A stretch of DNA of 64,000 nucleotides, from contig NZ_JAVJSQ010000020.1 in NCBI RefSeq assembly GCF_040219335.1, positions 62,001-126,000 of the forward strand. The letters run 5' to 3'. Source of the DNA: Gimesia sp. Its GTDB lineage: Bacteria; Planctomycetota; Planctomycetia; Planctomycetales; Planctomycetaceae. Below the pieces are notes generated by a model, which worked only from the letters and a program-made list of their open reading frames with translations, had not been told where the DNA came from and did no database searches. Numbering within the stretch: position 1 is the first letter of the stretch; the number at the start of each line of letters is the position of its first letter. The position numbers were made by a program, and so were the translations under genes. This document shows positions 2,936 to 9,570 of the stretch, in pieces.

Positions 2936-3217
2936 TTAGTAAACTTCAACCTGATCCAGGATGGCCGACACATAGGCGTCGATCGGTTTGGTATCGGGAT
3001 TAAAGGGAGCCGCTGCTTCCGCTCCTTCACTGACAGCAATCAGGCTGCCAGGTGAAGCACCCAACTCATCGTAGATCACAAACGGTTCCGTTTTCTTTTT
3101 CTTGTTTGTGTTCAGTTCGTCGCTCTTTAAGGGAATCCCGATAATCCACCGCGCGCCGTCCAGACTCGGATGCTTGCGTGACAGTGTCACTTTGCCGATG
3201 ACTTCTGCGATTTTCAT
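2936..3217 (-). CDS. BMC-P (EutN/CcmL) pentameric shell vertex protein 1
   Basis: A 93-residue protein starting MKIAEVIGKVTLSRKHP, the usual opening of EutN/CcmL proteins, followed by the conserved ASPGSLIAVSEGAEA turn and ending IDAYVSAILDQVEVY. Pentamers of this family cap the vertices of microcompartment shells. The ATG at 3217 is preceded by AGGGAA at good spacing, so a longer in-frame extension to 3298 is rejected. A lysine-rich insertion (NTNKKKKTEP) falls in the variable loop. It is one of three divergent BMC-P paralogues here; three is the usual number in PVM-type loci. Confidence 0.95.
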   Translation of the reverse strand: MKIAEVIGKVTLSRKHPSLDGARWIIGIPLKSDELNTNKKKKTEPFVIYDELGASPGSLIAVSEGAEAAAPFNPDTKPIDAYVSAILDQVEVY

Positions 3218-3263
3218 AATCTGGTTCCCTGTGTAGTTCCCTGAATTCGAATTCTTTGCCCAC

Positions 3264-3953
3264 TCAGACTTCCGGATGCGGAGTGCCGGCGGAGACAAAG
3301 GCCTTCATCAGGTTTCTCAATTCAATGAATGATTTCTGCTCCGGGTTGATGCAAACGAGGTTTGGACTCATTTGCGACACAACCGTTCGCAGGTGATTCA
3401 CATCCTGGATGGCGGCGGCACAGATTTTCTGATTCCGATTCGCCAGGCAGGCTGCTTTCTCTGCTGCCGAGACAAACAGGACCACGCCTGCGGCATCGGC
3501 ACGACATAAACTGCTGACCGCCCCCTGGATCGCTTCGTCCAGAGAACCTGCCAGTTCCTGTGACCAGCTTGCGCCGGTCTGCTGTTCGATATTTGTCAGA
3601 GCCTGTTCCACCACGCCAGCCCGACTGAGGACTATCGCCCGCCAGGCGCCCCCCTGCTTCGCTTTTGTGGAAGCAGCGGCTGTCGCACGCTGAATCTCGA
3701 CTTTGTGTTCCCGCAGATAATCTTTAGCCGAAGGGGTCAGAATGGCCCCGGCGGTGACGCCGATGACGGTCTGTCCTTTGGCTTTCTCTGCGAGCAGGTC
3801 GGCCGTGATCACTTTCTCTGACAGGATGACTGAGGAACTGTTCCTGACCTGGGTCATACCGCTGCCTGTTGCCTGTGTGACCTGCCCCTGACGGGAGAGG
3901 GTCGACAAGACATCGGCGACGACCTGATTGACCAGTTCTTCAGAAATCTGCAT
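3264..3953 (-). CDS. Unknown BMC-associated protein with N-terminal encapsulation-peptide-like helix
   Basis: A 229-residue protein with no enzyme family I can name. Residues 1-20 (MQISEELVNQVVADVLSTLS) form an amphipathic helix closely resembling the first residues of the aldehyde dehydrogenase in this operon, suggesting luminal targeting. After a Gln/Thr/Ser linker comes KVITADLLAEKAKGQ and then VTAGAILTPSAKDYLREHKV, a block seen in several ethanolamine/propanediol microcompartment accessory proteins. The C-terminal half (about 105-225) is alpha/beta-like with cysteines in SSLCRADAAG, AACLANRNQKICAAA and LVCINPEQ. The start lies 4 nt after the stop of the BMC-P gene, so translation is probably coupled. 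An assembly factor or cargo protein is plausible. Confidence 0.85.
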   Translation of the reverse strand: MQISEELVNQVVADVLSTLSRQGQVTQATGSGMTQVRNSSSVILSEKVITADLLAEKAKGQTVIGVTAGAILTPSAKDYLREHKVEIQRATAAASTKAKQGGAWRAIVLSRAGVVEQALTNIEQQTGASWSQELAGSLDEAIQGAVSSLCRADAAGVVLFVSAAEKAACLANRNQKICAAAIQDVNHLRTVVSQMSPNLVCINPEQKSFIELRNLMKAFVSAGTPHPEV

Positions 3954-3957
3954 TAGT

Positions 3958-4242
3958 TTATTTCTTTTTCCTCGTAATCACCTGATCTTCATCGAGCACC
4001 CCCATGGTGGCCCAGCGGATGGGGGTATTGTCGGCCCCCACCATTTCCCGGACGGCAGCCCCGTCTGATGTCAACAGCACCAGATCGTGTTTGCCGCATC
4101 CGAGTTGATCGATGACCAGTTCAGGAAATCCATCTGCGTTGCCATCAATATCCAGTGTCTGGACGAGCAGCAGTCGCCAGCCTGCCAGACTGGGATGCTT
4201 TGCCGTGGCGGTTGCCCGTCCGATGACTCTGCCTGTCAACAT
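3958..4242 (-). CDS. BMC-P (EutN/CcmL) pentameric shell vertex protein 2
   Basis: A 94-residue protein beginning MLTGRVIGRATATAKHPSL and containing LLLVQTLDIDG and ELVIDQLGCGKHDLVLLTSDG, the canonical strands and central glycine turn of EutN/CcmL pentamers. The last residues are lysine-rich (ITRKKK). It sits 39 bp after the aldehyde dehydrogenase gene and 4 bp before the unknown 229-residue protein, within the same transcript. It would close vertices of the shell together with the two other paralogues. Confidence 0.94.
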   Translation of the reverse strand: MLTGRVIGRATATAKHPSLAGWRLLLVQTLDIDGNADGFPELVIDQLGCGKHDLVLLTSDGAAVREMVGADNTPIRWATMGVLDEDQVITRKKK

Positions 4243-4281: not shown

Positions 4282-5706
4282 TTAGATAATTCGTAAATGT
4301 CCGACGGTGGTGGAACGACGGAAGCGGGTGAAGGTCAGCGGGTTGGTGACCCCTTCCCCGGTGGGTGTCGCGATACTGAAGGAACCGTAGCCTTCACCAC
4401 CGTTGCCCAGGGCAGCTCCACAGGGACCATTCTGCACAAACAGAGTGGTGTCCATGACGCGACCCATTTTGGTAATGGTTTCAATATTGCGTGAGTGAAT
4501 CATGCTGGTGTGCCGGAATCCGTGTTCGAATTCTTTGGCCAGCTCGATTCCATGATCGGCGTTGCGACAGCGAACGAAAGGCACGAAGGGCATCATCTGC
4601 TCTTCAGGCACGAAGGGGTTGTTCGTATCGGTTTCACCGTAAAGTAACTGAGTTCCGGCCGGCACATTGACGCCGATCATCCCGGCGAGCACGGCGGCGT
4701 CTTTGCCGATCATGTCGCGGTTGAGCATAGCATGTCCGCCCGGTTCTTTGGGAGGAGCGAAGGCCAGCGATGTGAGTTGTGCGACCTGCTGAGCGTTCAG
4801 CTGGAATCCGCCATGACGTCCCATAGCTGACATCAGCTGGTCGAAGATACTGTCGACGGCGAAGACTTCTTTTTCGCCGATACAGAGCAGGTTGTTATCG
4901 TAGGCCGCCCCGATAATGATCGATTTGGCGGCGTTGTCGAGATCTGCGGTTTCATCGACGACCACGGGAGGATTCCCCGGTCCGGCGACGATGGCCCGTT
5001 TCTTGGCGGCCAGAGCAGCACGGGCAACGCCCGGTCCCCCGGTCACAACGAGCAACGGAATGCCGCGGTGATTGAAGATTTCGTCGGCGGTTTCCAGGGT
5101 CGGGTTACCGACGATGGTCACCAGGTTCTGCAGACCGGTCGCCTGGTAGATGGCCTGGTTGAAGCGACGCACCCCTTCACAGGCGATTTTCGCTCCGCTG
5201 GGGTGCGGGTTGACGACCAGCGTGTTGCCGGCGGCGACCATGTTGATGAAGTTACAGGCCAGAGTCGGCAGGGAGTGTGTTACAGGAGTAATGGCACCGA
5301 TGACGCCGAAGGGGGCGTATTCGGTAAGGCTGATCCCGTTGTCCCCGGAGACGGCTTCGGTCTTGAGGAATTCCATGCCGGGAATGCTTTTGATCAGATG
5401 CAGTTTTTCGATTTTGTGATCGAGGCGACCGATTTTGGTCTCTTCGAGTTCCATGCGGCCCAGTTCTTCCGCCTGGGTATCGCAGATCTGCCGCACGATT
5501 TCGAGTGCCTTGGCCCGGTCTTCCAGAGTGGCCTTGAGCAACTGCTGCTGACCTGCGGTGGCAGCGGCAACCGCCTGGTCAACACTGTTGAACACGCCCC
5601 AGTCGCCATCGCTGCCGGCGGGTGCGGAACCATAGCCACCCCGGTTATTGAGCTGCGATAACACTTCCTGAACGACACTGCGAATGGCTTCTTCTGTCGC
5701 CTGCAT
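4282..5706 (-). CDS. CoA-acylating aldehyde dehydrogenase (PduP/EutE type)
   Basis: A 474-residue NAD- and CoA-dependent aldehyde dehydrogenase, expected to turn lactaldehyde (or propionaldehyde) into the acyl-CoA inside the shell. The catalytic cysteine is C275 in [12 protein letters not shown]. The substrate/NAD region includes [16 protein letters not shown] and NPHPSGAK, and [11 protein letters not shown] is the glycine-rich cofactor turn. Residues 1-20 ([20 protein letters not shown]) are an amphipathic helix followed by a Gly/Ser/Ala linker, the standard N-terminal encapsulation peptide of PduP-like enzymes. The ATG at 5706 is preceded by a weak GGGGAGAG. It is transcribed after the membrane-protein gene. 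Confidence 0.95.
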
Positions 5707-5776: not shown

Positions 5777-6298
5777 TCAGTTTTGGTTTTCCAGGTTATA
5801 GTTTTCCATCTGGTTGCGAATCCATGCTTCCAGTTTTGATTTGGTCGGTACCGAAGCAATCATGACCAGCAGCAATATGCCGACAGCCACAAGCGAAAGT
5901 ACCTGGCTTTCTGTCATATAGGCCACCAGATTGAGCATCGCCGCTCCTTCCAGTAAGGCCAGTCCCACAATCAGACGAGTCATGAAAATCTGATCGTAGG
6001 TTGCCAGAACCTCGTCTTCGTCCTGAATATTCTCTGTCTTAATTCTCTCCATGGCCTGGTTGAACATGTTGCGTCCTACCAGATCCGGCACAAAGGTGCG
6101 TAATGCCAGCATGACCGCTGTAGCACCCAGTCCCACATATGTCAGGAGCGGCAGATCGTCGCCGGGTGCTTCGTCCTTTCCCAGGATTCCGACCACGACC
6201 ACTCCGAAGGTTACCACACCCATGATCAGGGCAAACCAGATGATGAACATCGTCCGGTGTCTCTGCTCTGGCGTTGCCTGTGGTAACTGTCTGGCCAT
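5777..6298 (-). CDS. Unknown four-helix membrane protein in the BMC operon
   Basis: A 173-residue protein with four predicted transmembrane segments at about 17-40, 48-67, 110-130 and 136-152. Two lie on each side of a hydrophilic central loop with charged residues (ERIKTENIQDEDE). The N-terminus (MARQLPQATPEQRHRT) and C-terminus are hydrophilic. I do not recognise a named family. It lies between a BMC-P gene and the aldehyde dehydrogenase with gaps of 26 and 70 bp, so it is probably co-transcribed. Membrane proteins are not standard BMC parts. Metabolite export, compartment-membrane tethering or chance insertion are all open. Confidence 0.82.
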   Translation of the reverse strand: MARQLPQATPEQRHRTMFIIWFALIMGVVTFGVVVVGILGKDEAPGDDLPLLTYVGLGATAVMLALRTFVPDLVGRNMFNQAMERIKTENIQDEDEVLATYDQIFMTRLIVGLALLEGAAMLNLVAYMTESQVLSLVAVGILLLVMIASVPTKSKLEAWIRNQMENYNLENQN

Positions 6299-6324: not shown

Positions 6325-6636
6325 TCAGTCCTTCGAGTTAAAAATCTCCCGGTTGCCAATGTGTACCTGATCGACGATGCCGATGATGGCTGCATCGATG
6401 GGCAGTTTTTTGGTTTCCGGTGTGAAGCGGGCTGATGACCCCTGCACACACAGCACGACCTCACCCTGCCCTGCCCCCACGGTATCGACGACGATAAACG
6501 ACCGTCCGGTGGGAGTCAGATCACTCTGGTCTTTTTCATTGACGCGCAACGGTTCGACAATCAACAGTTTCTGACCGACCATCGCTTCGACTTTCTGAGA
6601 CGAAACGACGCTTCCGGTGATACGTCCTACAAACAT
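6325..6636 (-). CDS. BMC-P (EutN/CcmL) pentameric shell vertex protein 3
   Basis: A 103-residue protein opening MFVGRITGSVVSSQKVEAM with QKLLIVEPL and VDTVGAGQGEVVLCVQGSSAR, which match the EutN/CcmL strand and turn pattern. The conserved C-terminal strand is IDAAIIGIVDQVHI, followed by a short tail. It is the first BMC-P gene transcribed after the acetate kinase gene (51 bp gap). It is more divergent from the other two than they are from each other by eye. Confidence 0.94.
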   Translation of the reverse strand: MFVGRITGSVVSSQKVEAMVGQKLLIVEPLRVNEKDQSDLTPTGRSFIVVDTVGAGQGEVVLCVQGSSARFTPETKKLPIDAAIIGIVDQVHIGNREIFNSKD

Positions 6637-7974: not shown

Positions 7975-8244
7975 TTAGATAAAGTTTGCCATCAGGCTTT
8001 CGGAGGGGCGTGCGATCACGTGAGCGCCAACCAGTTCTCCGATCTGAGAAGCGGCAGCAGCACCAGCGTCAACAGCAGCACGAACCGATCCGATATCACC
8101 CTGGATCACGGTGGTAATGTAGGCACCACCAATCTGAATCTGGTCAACCAGAGTCACGTTGGCAGCTTTCAGCATGGCGTCGGAAGCTTCGATTTGAGCG
8201 ACCAGACCTTTTGTTTCAATCAGACCAATTGCTTCGGAACTCAT
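7975..8244 (-). CDS. BMC-H hexameric shell protein 1
   Basis: An 89-residue single-BMC-domain protein: [39 protein letters not shown] and GDIGSVRAAVDAGAAAA are the standard facet-protein blocks, followed by HVIARPSESL. Hexamers tile the shell facets and their central pores admit metabolites. ATG at 8244 is chosen because AAAGAG lies upstream and homologues start here. An in-frame extension to 8364 reads through the intergenic hairpin and is not credible. It forms a tandem pair with the next BMC-H gene. Confidence 0.97.
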   Translation of the reverse strand: MSSEAIGLIETKGLVAQIEASDAMLKAANVTLVDQIQIGGAYITTVIQGDIGSVRAAVDAGAAAASQIGELVGAHVIARPSESLMANFI

Positions 8245-8297
8245 TATGTTATTCTCTTTCAATGTAATGGGTTGAGCTGAATCCTGTGTTGCTTCAT

Positions 8298-8318
8298 ACC
8301 AGTTGAACGTCAACTGGT
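8298..8318 (-). promoter_or_regulatory. Perfect RNA hairpin between the two BMC-H genes
   Basis: A perfect 9-bp stem (ACCAGTTGA/TCAACTGGT) with a 3-nt loop lies in the 137-bp gap. It has no U-tract. It fits a processing or stability element separating two highly expressed shell cistrons. Confidence 0.6.
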
Positions 8319-8381
8319 TATGTTCATCCTCAAAGCGTTCAGATTCAGGGACTTCAGCTGTCAAAGTTCAGAACCCGTTAA

Positions 8382-8681
8382 TTACTTTTTGGCAGCGGCA
8401 GTTTTACCGGGCAGTACATTAGCCAGTTCTTCGTGCGGACGAGGAATAACCTGTACGCTGACAACTTCGCCTACTTTGCTGGCAGCAGCAGCACCGGCAT
8501 CGATGGCAGCTTTCACAGCAGCGACGTCGCCGACAACAAATGCGGTTACCAGACCGCTACCGACTTTTTCCCAGCCAATCATCTGTACGTTGGCTGCTTT
8601 GAGCATTGCATCGGCGGCTTCAATCAGGCTGATCAGCCCTTTTGTTTCCACCATTCCCAGGGCTTCCATTGCTTTCGCCAT
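8382..8681 (-). CDS. BMC-H hexameric shell protein 2
   Basis: A 99-residue single-BMC-domain protein with [55 protein letters not shown] and [11 protein letters not shown]. It ends in a basic Ala/Lys tail (GKTAAAKK), which distinguishes it from its neighbour. A good ribosome site (AGGAG) lies 9 nt before the ATG. The two BMC-H genes together with three BMC-P genes and no BMC-T gene match the shell inventory of PVM-type compartments. Confidence 0.97.
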
Positions 8682-8808: not shown

Positions 8809-9519
8809 TCAGCTGTGTTTGCATTTACAGGATTCCGGGACGAAGAGTTTGACCGAAGTCGCATGATCGAGGTCGACGGCGTTGCCTTCGTCGGTATCGA
8901 TGTGGACTTCCAGTTTGACGTCCGGGTTTTCGCGTACGACCACATCTTCGAGGACCGTCGTGCAGCCGGGGGAATCGACCCGCAGGTGCAGGCTGTCGCC
9001 GTTGGCACAACCGTAGTAAGCACAGTCAGCGGGTGACATGTGAACGTGACGGGCAGCCCGGATCACGCCGAAATCGAGTTCGACGACTCCCTGGGGTCCC
9101 ATCAGCACACAACCAGGTGTGCCTTTGATGTCGCCACTGATGCGGACGGGCAGATCCAGTCCGAGCGAGATGGAATCGGTGTAGGCCAGTTCGACCTGAG
9201 TATCGCCACGGCAAGGTCCCAGAACGCGAACGTTGGGGATCATCCGGCGGCGGGGGCCGACAATCGCCACGGTCTGAGTGGCGGCGAAGTAGCCATCCTG
9301 GTAGAGGTCTTTCTGGACTTCGAGTTCAGAGCCTTTGCCGAACAGGACTTCCAGGTGTTCCTGAGAGAGATGCACGTGTCGTGCTGAGATATTCACAACC
9401 AGGGGGTTCGGGGCCGTCTGCAGTCCCGGAGCTGATGTGCCCGGGAGTTGTTGAGATAAAGCCTGACGAACCAGTTGTTCAACCTGCGAGCGAGAGATGG
9501 AATTTTTCAGTTGTGTCAT
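8809..9519 (-). CDS. pduL: PduL-type phosphate acyltransferase
   Basis: A 236-residue phosphotransacylase that exchanges CoA for phosphate on the acyl-CoA, recycling CoA inside the compartment. It has the two PduL beta-barrel repeats. Zinc-ligand histidines lie in ISARHVHLS (H48, H50) and again in RAARHVHMS (H158, H160), with H206 in [13 protein letters not shown]. Residues 1-25 ([20 protein letters not shown]) form an amphipathic encapsulation-type helix, followed by a Pro/Ala linker. The ATG at 9519 is preferred to an upstream TTG at 9534. The C-terminus is unusual, ending in CKCKHS. It is first in the operon after the DeoR gene (51 bp). Confidence 0.95.
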
Positions 9520-9570
9520 AATATCTGATCTCAATTTATTGTATGGTCTCGATGATCGATTCAGAGATTG

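Follow-up and report, generated by a model that had tools for sequence, protein, structure and literature searches.

The PVM locus and its 229-residue protein

The window analyzed here, a 64,000-nucleotide stretch of Gimesia sp. DNA, contains a microcompartment (BMC) locus of the PVM (fucose/rhamnose) type, with all genes on one strand (minus). The locus encodes, in order, a lactate/malate-type dehydrogenase, a class II aldolase as the signature enzyme (1986-2891; profile match), a BMC-P pentamer, a protein of 229 residues, a second BMC-P pentamer and a CoA-acylating aldehyde dehydrogenase (AldDH) with an N-terminal encapsulation peptide (EP) (4282-5706; profile matches). These are followed by a small membrane protein, a third BMC-P protein (6325-6636; profile match), acetate kinase, two BMC-H proteins (7975-8681), which alone in the genome match PF00936 at E <= 0.001, a PduL-type phosphotransacylase (8809-9534; PF06130, E 3.4e-69) and a DeoR-type regulator, identified by eye from its ORF. 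Apart from the 229-residue protein and the membrane protein, these genes make up the full PVM set, in agreement with the locus composition described in PMC4207490. The putative membrane protein (173 residues; 5777-6298, minus strand), encoded between the AldDH and BMC-P genes, has no Pfam or NCBIfam match above cut-off. A homolog occupies the same place in locus L096 (1.1e-12), and a single-sequence search did not find it in the BMC operons of loci L072-L080.

At the position given in the preliminary description (3264-3953), the 229-residue reading frame lies on the minus strand and starts with ATG, with both peptides quoted there present letter for letter; the plus-strand reading is broken by stops. 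It is flanked directly by two pentamer genes: upstream at 3958-4242 (PF03319, E 1.5e-22), 4 bp away, and downstream at 2936-3217 (PF03319, E 1.7e-19; scanned as ORF 2936-3298), 46 bp away if the start is the ATG at 3217. With such short gaps on both sides, the gene looks operonic. Its dN/dS of 0.11-0.24 over seven Gimesia pairs indicates purifying selection on the whole reading frame, which comprises an EP-like helix, a putative docking module and a pseudo-RpiB domain.

The N-terminal element is an amphipathic helix at residues 4-20 (3894-3944, minus strand), predicted as helix over residues 5-22 in an AlphaFold2 model. It is followed by a variable linker of low model confidence (residues 21-42; 3828-3893, minus strand; pLDDT <50 at 22-39, mean column identity 0.30). 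In both sequence and model, this short amphipathic terminal helix with its flexible linker resembles that of EP-bearing luminal proteins. Counted by eye, 10 of the first 20 residues are identical to those of the AldDH N-terminus, a likeness already pointed out in the preliminary description and borne out by scoring. On an EP matrix built from the AldDH N-termini of 11 other loci, with near-identical Gimesia copies left out, the N-terminus scores 14.8 bits, second only to AldDH among 108 termini of 54 window genes called by a simple longest-ORF rule. None of 14,994 background 17-mers from the 50 other genes reaches this value (maximum 8.9), and 14 of 20,000 shuffles of the first 25 residues do. 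The hydrophobic moment of the helix, 0.34, is reached by 4.6% of shuffles.

It is AldDH in particular that the N-terminus resembles, since the C-terminus of the window aldolase (weakly EP-like, 2.1 bits) and the N-terminus of PduL (-0.1 bits) are unremarkable: the matrix, trained on PVM AldDH, scores neither better than a non-BMC terminus. With the window AldDH added to the matrix, 19 of the 22 family-alignment sequences score above every background 17-mer, as do just 4 of 9 PVM relatives from outside the family and 1 of 11 FRAG-like sequences from the non-PVM loci described below. The matrix also fails to pick out a Rahnella flavoprotein, Enterococcus EutQ and most FRAG-like RpiB N-termini.

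The LTPxAxD module and the RpiB-like domain

Residues 43-90 (3684-3827, minus strand) form a beta-alpha module with the motif LTPxAxD, a putative shell-docking element, which is connected to the C-terminal domain by a second low-confidence linker in the AlphaFold2 model (residues 91-101; 3651-3683, minus strand). The block LTPSA, noted earlier as common to accessory proteins of other microcompartments, proves to be part of a module of about 48 residues that recurs in EutQ, EutT and BMC-locus flavoproteins, with a weak likeness in PduM. The final ~45 positions of NCBIfam TIGR02536 align with residues ~46-88 (E 1.2e-5), the only match of this model in the genome at E <= 0.001, and 20 of the 22 family members match it over the module (best 7.7e-7). 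The protein is not itself a member of TIGR02536, as it scores 25 bits over positions 162-205 only, against a cut-off of 152.6 bits over 207 positions. Among the 22 members, the module is also matched by the models of PduM (4 members, best 0.0062), EutQ (3, best 0.025) and Pfam PDU_like (4, best 9e-4). All four FRAG-like relatives scanned match EutQ, PduM or TIGR02536 across the module stretch, and an Ilyobacter flavoprotein encoded where pduM would be matches both the PduM model (1.8e-6) and TIGR02536 (1.1e-7).

PVM and FRAG-like sequences were used to build a profile of the module, which was searched unfiltered against 3,218 sequences: 1,609 ORFs, drawn from eleven loci of which eight belong to E. 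coli or plasmids, and the shuffles of these ORFs. In the first round the first 11 matches are all module proteins and the first decoy (E 0.24) comes after them; the 11 comprise the 229-residue protein, which is a training sequence, two unlinked homologs, two RMM-like proteins, two BMC-locus flavoproteins, EutT, two EutQ and PduM. Taken singly, E. coli EutQ (E 0.043) and PduM (E 0.22) are both marginal in this round. After one iteration EutQ improves to 0.013, while PduM, at 0.82, falls behind the first shuffled decoy (0.39). The module link to EutQ is therefore the firmer one, and that to PduM rests on the chain of NCBIfam matches. The match in E. coli EutQ covers residues 3-49 and spans its helices H1/H2.

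The two RMM-like loci, so classed by eye, carry the module in different forms. In Methylibium (L121, 9688-10986) it is the N-terminus of an annotated malate dehydrogenase, and in Rhodococcus (L122, 9568-9954) it is a separate protein of ~128 residues encoded beside malate dehydrogenase.

The C-terminal part, residues 102-222 (3288-3650, minus strand), is a degenerate domain of the RpiB/LacAB fold, placed by profile alignment from about residue 138 onwards and by the structural model for its first part. Single-sequence searches of Pfam and the PDB with the 229-residue protein returned nothing useful. The earlier statement that no known enzyme signature is present thus holds for the single sequence in Pfam; it does not hold for the family, at which level the RpiB domain emerged. 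PF02502 (LacAB_rpiB) matches 10 of the 22 family members (best 1.3e-4) and does not match the 229-residue protein itself, which falls short of the Pfam gathering score. When 31 PVM sequences are compared with 14 RpiB domains profile to profile, the probability is 96% (E 2.9e-9, score 63, 85 columns), with about residues 138-223 aligned; comparison with three ordinary RpiB alone gives 94% and 1.5e-7. The real score of 63 compares with at most 19.5 in 50 column-shuffled controls and with 13.6 in the reversed one. The AlphaFold2 model, calculated from a shallow alignment of 9 sequences (pLDDT 71, pTM 0.50), also has the RpiB fold in a structure search: all 39 PDB chains found at E <= 1e-3 are isomerases, 37 of them named ribose-5-phosphate or galactose-6-phosphate isomerases and two belonging to 4u8f, a ketol-isomerase.

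Little of the RpiB active site is left in this domain. The pair N172-R173 (3435-3440, minus strand), corresponding to the AN(K/R) pair of RpiB, is kept in all 31 PVM sequences. In terms of E. coli RpiB, the residues retained in all of them are the equivalents of Asn76, Lys77 (as Arg) and Asn103. The equivalents of Asp9, Gly67, Gly69, Gly71, Asn100 and Arg133 are kept in none of the 31, His10 and Arg137 in one each, and Cys66 and His99 in two each; the Asp9 and His10 columns lie outside the profile alignment, where the alignment is less certain. V161-A164 (3462-3473, minus strand) occupies the position of the catalytic CGTG loop, which is lost. With V161 at the position of Cys66, Q194 at that of His99 and neither Arg133 nor Arg137, the protein lacks the catalytic Cys (or Glu), the ring-opening His and the phosphate-binding Arg of RpiB. 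By its residues it looks like a dead sugar-phosphate isomerase in which canonical catalysis is presumably gone, and its dN/dS indicates that it has been maintained despite this presumed loss. Two ordinary RpiB are encoded elsewhere in the genome, with Cys at position 66 in one and Gly in the other.

Compared with the RpiB/LacAB isomerases (PF02502), which are known from SPU and SPU-like loci (PMC8217296, PMC4207490), the 229-residue protein shares the fold and the three conserved residues; it differs in lacking the catalytic and phosphate-binding residues and in carrying the helix and the module in front. Structure prediction and remote homology lead to a general, non-BMC family, an outcome that the preliminary description had named as counting against its reading of the protein as looking like microcompartment cargo. 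As the match sits in a BMC-specific architecture and gene position, the identity of the protein changes and its BMC link stays.

Relatives and gene position

The gene was found in 42 of 59 relatives, including 16 of 17 genomes of the genus and 19 of 20 of the family. A genus member with a single-contig genome (G001, locus L016) shows it as two overlapping pieces, owing to either a frame change or a sequencing error. No relative was found in the plasmid collection at E <= 0.01. A profile search detects the gene in 84 of 392 Planctomycetota genomes and BMC-P in 134 of what we take to be the same 392. Within the class of the window genome, the gene is present in 46 of 47 sampled genomes with BMC-P (the exception is G037) versus none of 5 without. 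Outside the class, 30 of 38 gene matches fall in BMC-P genomes, and 57 of 87 BMC-P genomes have no gene match. The remaining 8 of the 38 matches are in genomes lacking a BMC-P match; the profile region they cover suggests ordinary RpiB segments. Segments of this kind may also be present among the 30, and in one of the 30 (G060) the sole BMC-P match is below cut-off.

In 82 of 88 loci the gene has a BMC-P domain no more than 435 nt away on each side, which corresponds to 60 of 66 distinct genomes (30 from the relatives, 16 more from the profile search and 20 hand-picked from the profile-search list). The six exceptions are two genomes of a single genus and four RpiB-type genes whose genomes have BMC-P elsewhere. 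In the two former genomes (loci L094 and L095) the PVM locus is scattered, with three BMC-P genes apart from one another and the homolog of the 229-residue protein in yet another place; in the draft genome the BMC-P genes are on separate contigs. The gene is kept in these genomes, complete with helix and module.

In several non-PVM loci (L062, L063, L066, L068-L071) the slot between BMC-P genes is filled by a protein consisting of the module and a near-complete RpiB. The nearest published class is FRAG, an assignment by likeness and not a formal classification; FRAG loci are described with a BMC-P triplet and with shell genes that for the most part lie far from known enzymes (PMC8217296). These FRAG-like proteins, together with those of L104 and L113-L115, share the module-RpiB order and the BMC-P slot with the 229-residue protein, and most have a helical-looking N-terminus by eye, which is not evident in L104. 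They differ in that the EP matrix mostly misses this N-terminus and that the RpiB domain is near-complete, with Asp in place of the catalytic Cys in all 11 aligned sequences and, by eye, in four more. The Asp-for-Cys RpiB (L061-L071, L104, L113-L115) represents a variant active site.

Another 20 BMC-P-triplet loci were examined; outside the class, these are the places with the highest BMC-P scores among those not already included. Four carry a module-RpiB gene in the slot, with Asp when read by eye; in the other 16 the pentamer genes enclose no isomerase gene, and a class II aldolase follows the triplet. The layout of the latter (L097-L103, L105-L112, L116), three BMC-P genes and then the aldolase, is like that of the ACI type, which has been reported as exclusive to Acidobacteria (PMC8217296). 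From their common architecture and gene position, the PVM protein may descend from a BMC isomerase.

A probable shell-cargo adaptor

The closest functional parallel is EutQ. In Salmonella, deletion of EutQ residues 9-41 (H1/H2) leaves the protein with the cargo, deletion of residues 62-99 (H3/H4) leaves it with the shell, and both deletions separate shell from cargo; H1/H2 was placed at the EutL-EutM interface, with EutM and EutL as partners (PMC12487888). The module of the 229-residue protein corresponds to this shell-associated region, and both proteins have an EP-like or cargo-binding helix region and a folded C-terminal domain, which in EutQ is dispensable for assembly. In E. coli EutQ the EP matrix scores residues 86-102 highest, a window within H4 and slightly past it; its 9.6 bits exceed the best value among the 14,994 background 17-mers, 9.4. 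Because the Salmonella protein is shorter by 4 residues, the two numberings may be slightly out of register. The differences lie in the C-terminal domain, a cupin acetate-kinase domain in EutQ and pseudo-RpiB here, in the order of the parts, module then helices in EutQ and helix then module here, and in gene position, eutQ being away from eutN in E. coli and our gene beside BMC-P. The protein is not an EutQ, as the cupin PF06249 is absent from both protein and genome.

PduM offers a second parallel. It has an N-terminal signal sequence, is located in the core and helps to join shell and core, which partly separate when it is lost (PMC12108088, PMC9132943). A 2025 paper still states that no sequence homology of PduM is known beyond Pdu compartments (PMC12108088). 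PduM (PF15953, TIGR04493) resembles the 229-residue protein in its signal helix, in a similar module at its C-terminus and in its BMC-P neighbor, pduM directly preceding pduN, and would share with it the core location and shell-core role; it differs in an unmatched middle part, and the module match is weak when taken singly. Membership in PduM was rejected, with the TIGR04493 cut-off of 50 bits not reached and no match in the genome. TIGR02536 and the BMC-locus flavoproteins, from a Rahnella glycyl-radical and an Ilyobacter diol-dehydratase locus, likewise have the module and a gene directly before BMC-P, with the differences of a flavoprotein-like middle domain and a C-terminal module. The Ilyobacter protein also begins with an amphipathic-looking helix, which scores 0.8 bits on the EP matrix (8 of 14,994 background 17-mers are as high).

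A search of the window genome for known linkers, with EutQ, PduM and BMC-domain profiles, gave no EutQ, PduM or tandem-BMC (PduB/EutL-type) match at E <= 0.001; just two single-domain BMC-H and three BMC-P proteins were found. A cargo-type helix and a putative shell-docking module in one protein suggest that it ties enzymes to the shell. As both elements are present and the genome has no EutQ, PduM or tandem-BMC match, we infer that the 229-residue protein is probably a shell-cargo adaptor of the PVM microcompartment, built on a pseudo-isomerase. The guess of an assembly factor in the preliminary description is in line with this reading. As an adaptor, the protein would join the enzyme core through its helix, by packing with enzyme EPs, that of AldDH first. 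The flexible linker would space the helix from the LTPxAxD module, which would dock on the inner face of the shell as reported for H1/H2 of EutQ. The pseudo-RpiB domain, a folded, non-catalytic and probably oligomeric body in place of the dimeric cupin of EutQ, would make the adaptor multivalent. Shell binding, cargo binding, oligomerization and a need for the protein in assembly are thus expected properties, whereas the three parts and their homologies, the loss of the canonical active site, purifying selection, co-occurrence with BMC-P and the absence of EutQ, PduM and tandem-BMC matches are computed. Against an adaptor, the EutQ partner EutL has no counterpart found in this genome, and the parts stand in another order than in EutQ. 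The marginal single matches of the module to E. coli EutQ and PduM, the failure of most relatives outside the family to exceed the EP background, the gene in pieces in G001, its absence from G037 and from many BMC-P genomes outside the class, and the shallow structural model count against it as well.

Catalytically dead homologs often regulate. The protein could accordingly be plain cargo, an encapsulated pseudo-isomerase that regulates the aldolase or AldDH or senses a metabolite, with the module merely helping encapsulation. A regulatory role of dead homologs has been argued for other BMC proteins (PMC4207490), and the module is present on real enzymes, EutT and the RMM-like malate dehydrogenase, so it may simply dock cargo or be a general docking tag. 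We nonetheless consider this unlikely: the phosphate-binding arginines of RpiB are lost, in more than one type of BMC the gene is grouped with those of the shell pentamers and not with those of the enzymes, and the three profiles reveal no other candidate linker in the genome.

A little less probable still is a luminal enzyme with a new active site (Cys169-Asn172-Arg173) on the RpiB fold, acting on lactaldehyde, lactyl-phosphate or a sugar phosphate. C169, N172, R173 and N198 are invariant in 22 sequences, and in the FRAG-like relatives most catalytic positions of RpiB are still present, Cys being replaced by Asp, so that the ancestor was probably an enzyme. Against this, the canonical positions are nearly all lost in the 31 PVM sequences, and the equivalents of N172, R173 and N198 are kept in ordinary RpiB too and need not mark a new site. 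The pathway steps after the aldolase, moreover, require no isomerase (PMC8857213).

About as unlikely, finally, is a partner of the BMC-P vertices that would set closure or size by binding pentamers through its module or pseudo-RpiB domain, without linking cargo: the BMC-P neighbors in most genomes, the pduM-pduN and flavoprotein-BMC-P gene pairs and the oversized compartments of some pduM mutants (PMC12108088) would suit it, but EutQ H1/H2 was placed at an interface of EutL and EutM (PMC12487888), E. coli eutQ does not adjoin eutN, and adjacent genes do not amount to physical contact.

The adaptor reading leads to a broader proposal, which is plausible though still short of probable. One docking module would have been reused on bodies as different as cupin (EutQ), PduM, EutT, flavoprotein, malate dehydrogenase and RpiB, often beside a pentamer gene, and in PVM loci an encapsulated isomerase bearing the module would have lost catalysis and become a dedicated adaptor. 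In openly licensed PMC text we recognized no publication linking the PVM protein to RpiB and none joining the EutQ, PduM and PVM modules, though an earlier mention is possible.

To our knowledge, carboxysomes and two enteric metabolosomes are the only microcompartments in which the tie between cargo and shell is understood in detail. If the module is shared, it would provide one testable rule of shell-cargo linkage across microcompartment types. The adaptor, if true, would be a candidate for the missing linker of PVM microcompartments and a source of a short docking tag for engineering, and it would exemplify how an enzyme inside a microcompartment can turn into a structural pseudo-enzyme.
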